Assembly (NCBI GenBank): GCA_022574295.1
Contig: JACZSJ010000012.1
Location: 1 to 34,984 of the forward strand
Origin: Pseudomonadota bacterium
GTDB taxonomy: Bacteria > Pseudomonadota > Gammaproteobacteria > Eutrophobiales > Eutrophobiaceae
DNA length: 34,984 nt
Reading direction: 5' to 3'
The notes below the pieces were generated by a model that was not told the DNA's origin, ran no database searches, and saw only the letters and a list, made by a program, of their open reading frames with translations. Shown one piece after another: positions 12,250 to 34,325 of the stretch. Each line of letters starts with the position of its first letter. Position 1 is the stretch's first letter. The translations under genes and the position numbers were made by a program.

Positions 12250-12267
12250 CTGGTTTTACTCCAAATC

Positions 12268-12338
12268 AAGCGAGCACCGTTTGAAAATGCTATCTCCCAA
12301 GCCTGGCGGTTGAATTCGTCGCAGTGCTCCTCGGGGGA
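12268..12338 (-). ncRNA. SAH (S-adenosylhomocysteine) riboswitch in the ahcY leader
   Basis: Minus strand reads CCCCCGAGGAGCACTGCGACGAATTCAACCGCCAGGCTTGGGAGATAGCATTTTCAAACGGTGCTCGCTTGATT. It has the CCGAGGAGC(R)CUGCGAC start, CCAGGCUUGG and closing AACGGUGCUCG (GAGCAC/GUGCUC pairing) of the ahcY-associated SAH riboswitch, just upstream of the GGAG ribosome-binding site. Confidence 0.92.
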
Positions 12339-12417: not shown

Positions 12418-12492
12418 GTTAGCTTTGGCCTGATTTGGAGTAAATTTGATAATTCACAGTAATCTCTTAGATTTGGTTTTGCCTGATGGCAA

Positions 12493-12526
12493 GTACCTTT
12501 CTCTTGCGTGCCCAAGAGAAAGGTAC
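12493..12526. repeat. Palindromic repeat, GTACCTTTCTCTT...AAGAGAAAGGTAC
   Basis: 13-bp perfect inverted repeat with 8-nt loop; same family as 14511-14545. Confidence 0.7.
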
Positions 12527-12779
12527 GAAAGAGAAGGGCACCCTAATGCCTTGGTCTAACGGCTCCCCGAACTGCTCACCATCGCCAACGCGTCGTTCAA
12601 ATTCGCATCCATGCTCAGTTGAACTAAAAATTACATCCCTGTAATTTTTACGCTACCGATGGCAATCAGTCCGGCAAGGCAAAACGGGAGCAAAAAACTG
12701 CAGAACATTTACGACAGTGGAATGATTATAAAAATCGATCTATCCTGAGCAATAGTTTCTCAGACCTAAAGGAATAGAG

Positions 12780-12917
12780 ATGAAAATACCTCATATCAAT
12801 AATCTACTTGAAAGAAGAGCGCGCTTTACCCCTTTAATATCCAATATACGCGCTAGTCTAGCTCACTATATAAGAAAAATAAGCGGACGCTCTAGTATCC
12901 GCTTATCAACAAGTTAG
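12780..12917 (+). CDS. Small ORF (45 aa, basic) preceding the first cassette boundary
   Basis: AAAGGAA-tagag-ATG; translation MKIPHINNLLERRARFTPLISNIRASLAHYIRKISGRSSIRLSTS*. The TAG stop falls in the GTTAG recombination core. Shorter than the ORF-track cutoff. Confidence 0.35.
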   Translation: MKIPHINNLLERRARFTPLISNIRASLAHYIRKISGRSSIRLSTS

Positions 12918-12922
12918 CAAGC
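12857..12922 (+). other. Degenerate attC-like site (right end of a preceding cassette)
   Basis: 9-bp perfect hairpin ATAAGCGGA/TCCGCTTAT (12879-12906) followed by caacaaG|TTAGCAAGC core; the left core GTCTAGC is one base off RYYYAAC. Confidence 0.4.
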
Positions 12923-12933
12923 TAGATAAATAA

Positions 12934-13242
12934 ATGAGTCTAATAGAAAGATCAAAAATTGTTTATGTTTATACGTTCCTAGCGATAGTAATGTTCGGAT
13001 ATTTTATGGGTTACTTAATTTTTTCGAGTGATCCTCGAATGTCTAATCATGCTTTAGAAGTTGAAAAAGCTTACTTATGGGAAATTATTTTATTAGTTGT
13101 TGGTTTATTAAGTACATTTGTAATTTTATTATCGTCCTTATCACATTCTTTAAAAACAAAAAGAATGAAATGGAGAACATTAATGATTTTTATATTTCCA
13201 TTATCGTTTGTTTACGCATGGATACACGGTAGAAAGGCTTAA
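12934..13242 (+). CDS. Cassette-encoded hypothetical membrane protein (about 3 TM segments)
   Basis: 102 aa; hydrophobic segments VYVYTFLAIVMFGYFMGYLIF, IILLVVGLLSTFVILLSSL, LMIFIFPLSFVYAW. It lies 20 nt after the cassette boundary and 13 nt before an attC. Confidence 0.7.
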   Translation: MSLIERSKIVYVYTFLAIVMFGYFMGYLIFSSDPRMSNHALEVEKAYLWEIILLVVGLLSTFVILLSSLSHSLKTKRMKWRTLMIFIFPLSFVYAWIHGRKA

Positions 13243-13255
13243 AAATTATTATGAC

Positions 13256-13325
13256 GCTTGCTAACAAGTCACTCCATACGGACGCGCGAAAAAGCCCGCG
13301 CGCCCGTGAGTTCAAACGTTATGAG
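13256..13325 (+). other. attC: attC site (integron cassette recombination site) of cassette 1
   Basis: GCTTGCTAACAAGTCACTCCATACGGACGCGCGAAAAAGCCCGCGCGCCCGTGAGTTCAAACGTTATGAG. R'' GCTTGCTAAC is the exact reverse complement of the cassette 5' start GTTAGCAAGC at 12913-12922; layout closely resembles the aadA attC. Confidence 0.87.
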
Positions 13326-13446
13326 ATGATGTAGATAAAGGAATGGTTTAGCATAATGAAAGCAGATAAAATCATACAAAAAAATAAGAAAAAGGATAGT
13401 AAACATCAAAGATAACTGTTTTCAATAGCAATTAAATGAGGTCGAT

Positions 13447-13668
13447 ATGAGCGAAAAAATTAATGACGCAGCTTTGAAGGCACTAAAGATTGCCTTTAGC
13501 TACATGCCCAAAGCAATAGAAGTGACCAAATATGAATATGGCGATCGCTACCAAAAAGTGCTTGAGCATATTGAAACAGTCAAAGAAACCTTACTCATCA
13601 ACGATGTGGATCCCGAGGAAGTATATGGCGAGATAAATCCCGAAAATACACCTCATTCGACCTATTAA
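13447..13668 (+). CDS. Cassette-region hypothetical small protein (73 aa)
   Basis: ATGAGG-tcgat-ATG context; MSEKINDAALKALKIAFSYMPKAIEVTKYEYGDRYQKVLEHIETVKETLLINDVDPEEVYGEINPENTPHSTY. Confidence 0.65.
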   Translation: MSEKINDAALKALKIAFSYMPKAIEVTKYEYGDRYQKVLEHIETVKETLLINDVDPEEVYGEINPENTPHSTY

Positions 13669-13739
13669 TAAATTAGTAGTATTCGAGATCACTGTAGATG
13701 AAATTAAATTCGGTAGGCAATACAGCGGCGTTAAATGCT

Positions 13740-14204
13740 ATGAAAACAATAAATACGTTGATACTCCTTGGCGTTGTCGCGATCGTCGCTTCTTGTGATT
13801 CTCCACAAAGCATGGCATCCGTGACACAAGAGTCTTCCGATCTCCCCAAAAACACGGTCCTCGTGACGTACGAGTGGATCCGAGATCTGATCACAGTGAC
13901 CCAGAAAACGATGCTAGATGCAAGAAAACAACCTGGCAAGAACTACTTTATCGGATGGAAAAACGACGATGATGTGGTCACCGAAATCATCTTATTCAGA
14001 GATCATCCTCAACCTGAACCTGAAGTCATCGTGCAGGACTACGCCGGGTTAAAAAAAGCAATTCGTCAACTCCCCTCTGGATCTTTCGTCAGTTACACGT
14101 TTTCAGACTTCAGGAAAGACCTTTTGAATTACCAGCAGATCAAGGAACTGCACGACTTGTGTGCGAAGAATGGGATGCACTTCCTTCTTCACATGGGAGG
14201 ATAA
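13740..14204 (+). CDS. Cassette-encoded hypothetical lipoprotein
   Basis: Lipoprotein signal MKTINTLILLGVVAIVASC (lipobox VASC). The ORF-track start at 13698 would cross the cassette boundary; ATG at 13740 is 9 nt inside it. Confidence 0.7.
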   Translation: MKTINTLILLGVVAIVASCDSPQSMASVTQESSDLPKNTVLVTYEWIRDLITVTQKTMLDARKQPGKNYFIGWKNDDDVVTEIILFRDHPQPEPEVIVQDYAGLKKAIRQLPSGSFVSYTFSDFRKDLLNYQQIKELHDLCAKNGMHFLLHMGG

Positions 14205-14205
14205 A

Positions 14206-14280
14206 GCATTTAACAACACCATGCACACAGACAAAAATTCCGTTGCGCTCCACTTTTGCCGGTGATAGCAAACGTTAAGA
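14206..14280 (+). other. attC: attC site of cassette 3
   Basis: GCATTTAACAACACCATGCACACAGACAAAAATTCCGTTGCGCTCCACTTTTGCCGGTGATAGCAAACGTTAAGA. R'' GCATTTAAC is the exact reverse complement of GTTAAATGC at 13730-13738 (cassette start). Confidence 0.9.
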
Positions 14281-14510
14281 ACAACGAAGGGATCAATTCC
14301 CCTTTTATCAAGCCGAGGAAAGAAGTAGTGATAGGGGCAGATGTACAGGAAGTACAGGTGAGCGGCTCCATGACAGGATGTCATGTAGGCGTGTACCCGT
14401 TAGCACTACTGCCTGACGAGGGAAGCCGGAGGCCATGTCATCGGGGGCGATTTTGATGTGCAGGATGCACGAATGTCGCGGGTGCATGGATGCACAGGAG
14501 CGACCTTTTC

Positions 14511-14563
14511 GTACCTTTTCTTTCGTTCGTACAAAGAAAAGGTACACGCCGCTAAAAGGCGGA
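14511..14563. repeat. Palindromic repeat GTACCTTTTCTTT...AAAGAAAAGGTAC followed by the GCCGCTAAAAGGCGG hairpin
   Basis: 13-bp inverted repeat (14511-14523/14533-14545); 14516-14563 recurs in inverted orientation at 34937-34984 with about 2 mismatches over 48 nt. Confidence 0.75.
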
Positions 14564-14632
14564 ACCAAAGCTTATGATAAACGTGAGATCTTACGGATAA
14601 ATAAAGTTCGCCTTTCAGGCGGTATGTTTTTA

Positions 14633-14660
14633 CTGGATTCCCGCCTGCGCGAGAATGACG
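14633..14660. repeat. GGATTCCCGC...GAGAATGAC half-copy of the repeat seen at 10739-10800
   Basis: ctGGATTCCCGCCTGCGCGAGAATGACg, immediately 3' of metK. Confidence 0.55.
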
Positions 14661-14671
14661 AATTGTGAAAG

Positions 14672-15829
14672 CTACCCCAATTCCGATTTCAAAGCGTCAG
14701 CTTTATCCACACTCTCCCACGGTAAATCAATATCCGTTCGACCAAAATGACCATAGGCCGCTGTTTGTTTATAAATCGGTTGCAGCAGATCCAACATACT
14801 AATAATGCCCTTAGGCCTCAGATCAAAATGCTCTCTAACCGCAGCGATCAATTGAGATTCATCAACAGTCCCCGTACCAAAAGTCTCAATACCGATCGAA
14901 GTTGGTTCAGCCACACCAATTGCATAAGACACCTGCACCTCACATTTTGAAGCCAGCCCGGCAGCAACGATATTCTTTGCTACATACCGTGCGGCATAGG
15001 ATGCGGAACGATCCACCTTGGAAGGATCTTTGCCCGAGAAGGCACCGCCGCCATGACGTGCCATGCCACCATAGGTATCGACAATGATCTTGCGACCCGT
15101 CAAACCACAATCCCCAGCGGGTCCACCAATGACAAAACGTCCAGTTGGATTAATGTGATACAGGGTGTTTTCATGTAACCATTTTTCAGGCAGTACAAGT
15201 TTAATAATTTCTTCCATTACGGCTTCGCGCAGATCTTCTGTACTAATATCATCTGTGTGCTGTGTAGATAAAACCACTGCATCAATCGCTACTGGCTGGC
15301 CATCTTCATAACGGAATGTTACCTGACTCTTGGCATCGGGTCGCAACCAGCTTAATTTACCATTCTTCCTGATCTCGGCCTGCTTGCGCACCAGTCGATG
15401 GGCATAATCAATCGGAGCCGGCATCAAAGTATCAGTTTCATTGCACGCGTAACCAAACATCAGGCCCTGATCCCCTGCTCCCTGTTCTTTCTCATCACCT
15501 TCATCAACACCCATGGCGATATCATCAGACTGTTTGTCCAACGTAACATTGACATTGCAGCTCCTGGCATCAAAACCGATGTCCGGATCGGTATACCCAA
15601 TCTCGCTGATGGTCTGTCGAACGATGGATTCTATATCTACATTTGCCTCGCTCGTCACTTCCCCGGCAATCACAACAAGACCTGTAGTCACAAGGGTTTC
15701 ACAGGCAATTCTTGATTTGGGATCCTGCGCAATCAGCGCATCCACAATCGAATCGGAAATCTGATCTGCAACCTTGTCCGGATGACCCTCCGAGACGGAC
15801 TCTGAAGTAAATAAATAATCCTTTGCCAT
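14672..15829 (-). CDS. metK: S-adenosylmethionine synthetase
   Basis: 385 aa; [64 protein letters not shown]. Confidence 0.98.
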
Positions 15830-34005: not shown

Positions 34006-34050
34006 AAGTTTAACGACGCTGAATTGTAGTAGCGACGAGCAGTTATGGGT

Positions 34051-34228
34051 ATCTTCTGCAGTGTTCGCCAACAGGCTGGTGGTAACTTGAGCCTACTCTA
34101 CATTACCAGGGGACATTATTTGTGACGTTGTGTGCATGTCCATTCGTGGGAAGCCTGATATGTCAAAATTCGTTCCCACTTGAACTCACGGTTCAAGTTC
34201 TGAGGTTTGTAGCGGCACTGCGGTTGAT
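34051..34228 (+). ncRNA. ssrS: 6S RNA
   Basis: Directly 3' of zapA; the 3' part cCACTTGAACtcacgGTTCAAGttctgaggtttgtaGCGGCACTGCGG matches the 6S hairpin and terminal region; terminal stem atc..CTGCAGTG / CACTGCgG..gat closes a 178-nt RNA. Confidence 0.9.
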
Positions 34229-34325
34229 ATCCGCCTAATTTTTCTTGTATTTTTCCTTTCTCGTAGCATTCATTTACATGGGTTTTTAGTTTTTCGCTTC
34301 GTTTCAGGCTGGTTTCGCTGGCTGC

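Follow-up and report, generated by a model that had tools for sequence, protein, structure and literature searches.

The DNA between metK and ahcY at positions 12475-14572 of the window, by which we mean the whole analysed stretch of 34,984 nucleotides from the genome termed G000, is bounded on either side by a structured RNA-like module of the TwoAYGGAY type, the two copies being inverted relative to each other. These copies enclose an inward-directed promoter, a leader open reading frame, an attI-like site and gene cassettes, and a gene for an integron integrase (intI) was not found in the window. This region probably represents a single copy of a MITE-like carrier that is dispersed through the genome; the integron platforms that it carries lack intI and would be acted upon by an integrase supplied in trans. 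The most economical reading for the genus is that the cargo of such carriers often consists of promoter, leader, attI, cassette and attC without intI. The parts of the window element are as follows:

12475-12536 (-): outer half of the left module, with hairpin GTACCTTTCTCTTG..CAAGAGAAAGGTAC and terminal hairpin TTGCCATCAGGCAAAACCAAAT
12537-12689 (-): left structured module, TwoAYGGAY-type, pointing away from the cargo (model R1, 139.6 bits)
12718-12746 (+): Pc-like promoter, TGGAAT-17 nt-TATCCT, directed into the cassettes
12780-12917 (+): leader open reading frame of 45 amino acids, MKIPHINNLLERRARFTPLISNIRASLAHYIRKISGRSSIRLSTS, extending into the first cassette
12809-12914 (+): attI-like site, crossover CAACAAG^TT at 12913/12914, from alignment to intI-adjacent DNA of G001
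12914-13318 (+): cassette 1, defined by G^TT boundaries and 10-nt complementarity between start and R''
12934-13242: reading frame of cassette 1, membrane protein of 102 amino acids without Pfam family
13257-13325 (-): attC of cassette 1, folded bottom strand (model R2, 34.2 bits, E 3.4e-7; folding z -3.5)
13319-13730 (+): cassette 2, attC lost, with the core-like GTTAAATGC alone at its end; reading frame 13447-13668 (73 amino acids)
13731-14274 (+): cassette 3, defined by G^TT boundaries and 10-nt complementarity
13740-14204: most likely reading frame of cassette 3, lipoprotein with lipobox IVASC (from the translation)
14206-14281 (-): attC of cassette 3, weak (model R2, 18.3 bits, E 0.0095)
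14274-14302 (+): A-end, attC R' followed by AACGAAGGGATCAATTCCCC, linking the cassettes to the right module
14298-14450 (+): right structured module, TwoAYGGAY-type, pointing away from the cargo (model R1, 125 bits), with loops ACAGGA[C/T/A]GT and the loop sequence ACAGGATGT
14451-14572 (+): outer half of the right module, with two extra hairpins GTGCAGGATGCAC and GTGCATGGATGCAC

The initial annotation had divided the region into three cassettes by means of three recombination cores, and the cores were found with the positions and sequences it gave. Cassettes 1 and 3 are complete, whereas the middle one is without attC: its end carries the G^TT core, the R''/L'' half is absent, and the scan of the window with R2 detected no attC at its 3' end. 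The start of cassette 1 (GTTAGCAAGC, 12913) and GCTTGCTAAC, which ends at 13265, are exact complements; the same is true of the start of cassette 3 (GTTAAATGCT, 13730) and the R'' that ends at 14214, over 10 nt rather than the 9 claimed before. An exact 10-nt complement starting with GTT and located 150-1500 bp upstream is a property of just 3 of the 560 AAC sites on the plus strand, two of which are the attC sites of the window. Both sites were also recovered by R2, an attC covariance model built from 11 sites of G000 and two sister genomes with the window sites excluded, which placed them at the top of its list for the 35 kb window, the attC of cassette 1 ahead of that of cassette 3; the third-best match had an E value of 0.44. 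The training alignment supports both stems, R and L, together with the extra-helical base that stays unpaired (86.8% of cells paired as compared with 31-41% in slid alignments); the calibration of our home-made models is rough. On bottom-strand folding the second site (z +0.3) is no better than shuffled DNA and is therefore regarded as weak, its score resting partly on an R' flank common to the training sites. As the training sites stem mostly from module edges, the closeness of attC sites to modules is not readable as a rate. The weakness of the second attC and the loss of attC from cassette 2 indicate that the window copy may be decaying. A hand-written finder scoring attC stems and boundaries gave mostly noise outside contig C145, and the covariance model was used instead.

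The cassette proteins match no family in Pfam, NCBIfam or PADLOC. Plasmid homologues of the cassette 1 and cassette 3 proteins and a viral homologue of the cassette 3 protein were searched for and not found. Elsewhere in G000, where the initial annotation had suggested looking for other arrays, a separate and normal array of five attC sites is present on C3 (L332, 7605-10295), the reading frames of which resemble, by eye, toxin-antitoxin pairs and small proteins. On C10 (L109, 8601-9848) a cassette R'' (CACATAAC) abuts a module directly, as if the CCCGTTATGCC edge of the module had been substituted for the remainder of the attC.

Both flanks of the cassettes (12500-12870 on the left and 14262-14680 on the right) are repeated through the genome and adopt one fold in opposite orientation; the idea that the left flank is plain host intergenic DNA was dropped when this flank proved repeated. 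The structure of the modules is conserved. Consensus and covariation both reveal an outer stem that encloses two hairpins, the loops of which are conserved and (A)YGGAY-like; double changes are present in 36 of the 45 predicted pairs among 21 copies, and the covariation score for 83 copies is 0.661 as compared with 0.205 after shuffling and at most 0.12 after sliding, in an alignment that was fitted to the structure. Co-changing stems of the outer half are paired likewise beside most of 82 modules, and it is also at 12475-12536 that the likeness to the flank in G001 begins. While the stems of the modules vary, the loops stay constant and, for example at 14360-14400 of the window, read ACAGGA[C/T/A]GT, resembling the CAGGA repeats bound by CsrA.

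At gathering thresholds, the only Rfam matches in the window are a SAH riboswitch (RF01057, 43.3 bits) at 12265-12338 (-) and a 6S RNA (RF00013, 92.2 bits) at 34050-34230 (+). The riboswitch lies between the element and ahcY, and metK is separated by the element from the riboswitch-controlled ahcY. Relaxed thresholds are needed for TwoAYGGAY (RF01731; PMC2864571): the left module is a partial match with 39.5 bits (12588-12655) and the right module reaches 30.1 bits (14332-14408), both under the family gathering cut-off of 43. Full-length matches elsewhere in the same genome, on C145 (54.2 bits), C49 (51.8 bits) and C155 (44.5 bits), exceed it. Since the window copies fall short of the cut-off and these siblings lie above it, the former are filed as TwoAYGGAY-type and not as members of the family.

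Copies of the module occur in 14 of 60 near-relative genomes, with 23 in G000, 19 and 14 in two sister genomes and fewer in eleven others. All positive genomes of this sample belong to the same family, and the sample's other families have none; in a class-wide sample, modules are present in 17 of 291 gammaproteobacterial genomes. The assemblies used are fragmented, with contigs ending at module repeats, and several are incomplete. Many contig breaks of G000 coincide with such repeats, and the end of the window contig itself (34934-34984) falls inside a copy of the outer palindrome of the module.

Of the 25 pairs of neighbouring modules less than 3 kb apart in the whole-genome list for the 60 relatives, 23 are divergent (left -, right +), two are tandem and none is convergent, while random orientation would yield about a quarter of divergent pairs. 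Another 11 strong pairs in other families are divergent without exception (11/11). The cargo between paired modules measures 47-1790 bp. In these pairs, inverted terminal repeats bracket cargo other than a transposase, as in a MITE. Six of the 11, in the genome G126, have modules ~80 bp apart and one palindromic sequence in common; these nearly empty palindromic pairs look like an empty MITE-like element. The six similar palindromes (L359-L364) can be described as the empty form of the element. No target-site duplication is evident at the six copies, the element ends of which are not resolved to the base. A transposase could not be tied to the modules, and no pair enclosing one was noticed among the pairs inspected. 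In other genera, modules bracket single genes without attC (HNH, DpnII-like, DUF4238). One such gene, on C7 of G008 (L268, 1408-2328), encodes a DpnII/MboI-type nuclease domain (PF18742) and is matched by the 'Aga_Helical-REase' models of PADLOC; it is possibly a defence gene.

That the metK-ahcY spacer has received an insertion, as proposed in the initial annotation, is borne out by its length of 2.42 kb as compared with ~100-310 bp at the empty site in 10 other genera of the family (distances taken from alignment ends). In three relatives from other families the spacer measures 40-185 bp, and in the family genera G003 and G006 the gap is ~1.2 kb with ahcY more distant. The gap amounts to 1.39 kb in G001, the sister species (public record QNEM01000073.1, isolate B40_G6, scaffold name Guay6). 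On its left side the G001 spacer can be aligned with the window as far as 12852 (79%); on its right side the similarity resumes at the G^TT core that follows the last attC. The metK-ahcY flank is 82% identical between the two, but the cassettes are unrelated, that of G001 being a different one with its own attC; hence the frame is common and the content has been exchanged. Neither of the two observations named beforehand as contradicting the initial annotation, namely a failure of the attC model at both sites and vertical conservation of the same reading frames and spacers in relatives devoid of attC, was made. A similar picture emerges for a tesA-like gene, which adjoins a platform on C63 of G001 and C54 of G002 and lies beside a module and an attC on C103 of G000. 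Here, the flanks are 73-86% identical and the cargo is unrelated (436 nt of the C103 cargo are assembled). The contigs with tesA orthologues from six other genera yielded no module match. Sequence comparison of orthologous platforms thus shows replacement of cassettes at fixed sites.

The inner edges of the modules are of two kinds, a promoter type and an attC type. A promoter-like box (TGGMAT/TGGACA, 16-18 nt, TATNNT) faces inward at 17 of 82 inner edges and outward at 2 of 82; its frequency in random 120-mers is 0.3%. At edges of the attC type, the last attC is followed by AACGAAGGGATNAATCCC and then by the module, and the A-end junction of the window recurs at the attC-side module on C145 of G000, on C73, C87, C63, C135 and C245 of G001 and on C54 and C102 of G002. 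The succession of promoter, leader open reading frame and attI-like region is found in the window, on C87, C73 and C46 of G001, on C54 of G002 and on C86 of G000. The leaders are similar on C87 and C46 of G001, C54 of G002 and C86 of G000, and also resemble an open reading frame spanning the attI of G001. Local alignment to the intI-adjacent DNA of G001 yields scores of 59 for the window, 61 for C86 of G000, 64 for C87 of G001 and 49 for C54 of G002, as compared with shuffled maxima of 28 in one run and 33 in another. In a separate DNA search, window positions 12700-12914 matched G001:C129:5788-5850, beside intI, with an E value of 3e-6. The crossovers agree, with CAACAAG^TT in the window and AACAAG^TT or close variants in other platforms.

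A second type of platform, represented by C102 of G002, matches the promoter, leader and attI beside the intI gene of G041 over 143 bp (score 91, shuffled at most 28) and is in part also present on C10 of G000, C1 of G013 and C27 of G002. Furthermore, edges in G008, on C242 of G001 and in G031 match the promoter, leader and attI beside the intI gene of G031. The occurrence of two unrelated attI types in one frame argues against coincidence. Promoter, leader and attI of the platforms are therefore, as judged from these alignments, homologous to regions beside true intI genes. The window platform shares with complete integrons an attI homologous to one linked to intI, but intI is not adjacent and a module stands upstream of Pc in its place. 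Paired elements without attI or attC also exist. On C134 of G004, a toxin-antitoxin-like cassette and an attC come directly after an attI-like site (L375, 4774-4806), and the 2.8 kb inspected there contain no module and no intI.

The initial annotation had noted the absence of an integrase gene and proposed a search for one elsewhere. Indeed, there is none near the attC sites, and the only full-length intI of G000 resides on another contig (G000:C117:25314-26243, 402 bits), at the contig end. The encoded protein is 45% identical to the integrase of G001. BLAST of the platform leaders against the DNA upstream of the C117 intI produced nothing convincing; the match came from the sister genome. 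Since the C117 integrase is divergent and its upstream region unlike the leader, G000 may have no cognate integrase for this type of attI, or the gene may have escaped assembly: either the assembly, which is 96.5% complete, lacks a second integrase, or such platforms are no longer served. As no matching integrase was identified in G000, the action in trans is something that we infer.

On the basis of the carrier proposed here, an integron integrase produced elsewhere in the cell would insert and remove the platform cassettes in trans. The promoter would drive the first cassette and the leader open reading frame would feed translation into it. The module pair would act as a non-autonomous, MITE-like carrier that spreads the platform round the chromosome by means of a transposase.

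Other explanations have to be weighed against this carrier. The region had been classified as an orphan CALIN, and by count the term applies: R2 finds two clustered attC sites, an integrase is lacking beside them and on the contig, and this is the rule of IntegronFinder (PMC9024848). A CALIN in the sense of lacking an integron, however, would have neither Pc nor attI, and here the cassettes follow a promoter, a leader and an attI-like site. The label orphan is likewise only half right, as the genome has an intI gene and a five-attC array, and the unit lies between inverted dispersed modules. A mere remnant of a complete integron, or scattered array cassettes flanked by repeats through coincidence, would be in line with the cassette that has lost its attC and with the normal array on C3 of the same genome, but the bracketed layout recurs at further loci and in further genomes, and orthologous platforms hold different cassettes, which makes this reading improbable. 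IntegronFinder does not find attI outside class 1 and would therefore call a platform of this kind a CALIN. Still less probable is entry of the cassettes into a pre-existing repeat at a chance GTT by attG-like secondary-site recombination, with local DNA serving as leader. While genomic attG sites can receive cassettes through IntI, as mentioned in PMC12901181, and the site on C134 of G004 has cassettes with neither module nor intI nearby, several platforms share the same junction (CAACAAG^TT or close variants) together with the leader, and each of the two leader types matches an attI beside a true intI. Faulty assembly or binning that joined an integron contig to metK-ahcY might be considered, given that the window makes up one entire contig of a genome in 175 contigs, but is hardly credible: the independently assembled record QNEM01000073.1 has the same flanks, modules and junctions with a different cassette, and for the flanks the artefact is refuted by this sister genome.

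The modules could also be regulatory RNAs of the host, bound by CsrA or forming transcript 3' ends, that insulate accessory genes against transcription from their neighbours and are not mobile ends; cassettes would then accumulate between them since islands of this kind are tolerated. A role in CsrA binding has been proposed for TwoAYGGAY RNA (PMC4333381), the loops read ACAGGA[C/T/A]GT or CATGGATG, and modules are in sense only in transcripts that exit the element. On the other hand, a mobile repeat is suggested by the nearly empty palindromes of G126 and other genomes, which resemble one another, by the patchy distribution and by the many copies per genome. We consider a solely regulatory role unlikely, albeit the strongest of these alternatives. 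A regulatory function of the module RNA would be compatible with its function in a carrier, and both roles could hold.

When compared with known systems, the element resembles the integron mobilization unit (Poirel 2009, as cited in PMC11616780) and the class 1 integrons bracketed by a 439-bp MITE in Acinetobacter (PMC3934969), in which a truncated integron with cassettes is likewise bracketed by short non-autonomous repeats. These structures from clinical bacteria are the nearest published design. In contrast to them, the cargo described here runs from promoter to attC, including attI and leaving out intI, and there are many chromosomal copies, inverted TwoAYGGAY-type ends, two attI types and no known parent transposon. 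With a CALIN the window element shares its two attC sites and the lack of a nearby integrase; it differs by its promoter, attI-like site and repeated bracket, and by the exchange of cassettes at one fixed position. Chromosomal integrons (intI-Pc-attI-attC array) in the same genus and family have homologous Pc, leader, attI and attC, yet in the present case intI is absent, each genome has several copies and each copy one or a few cassettes. Mobile insertion cassettes are elements without a transposase whose ends flank passenger genes, the known cases having IS ends. The element likewise has passengers between transposase-less ends, but these are long structured repeats and some of the passengers are integron platforms. 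The term itself is used in PMC5444012. Divergent pairing of TwoAYGGAY round cassettes was not found in the open-access papers searched on TwoAYGGAY, CALIN and attI without integrase.

Integrons are conventionally seen as one attI beside one integrase, and intI-less clusters of attC sites as wreckage. The intI-less clusters described here still have a promoter and an attI, exist in multiple copies and exchange cassettes at fixed sites. A bacterium may therefore hold many cassette-capture sites in its chromosome rather than one. Tentatively, and with less confidence than we have in the carrier itself, this bears the possibility of a distributed integron, in which one integrase serves many scattered attI platforms that each have a promoter, are spread by a transposon-like module pair and would capture and express a cassette independently. 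If this is true, a cell could express several first-position cassettes at once, and some CALINs would be working platforms that are overlooked because the tools ignore attI outside class 1. For TwoAYGGAY, an RNA motif of unknown function proposed to bind CsrA, we know of no genomic context of this kind, and its occurrence as the paired ends of cargo elements offers a testable lead on its role.
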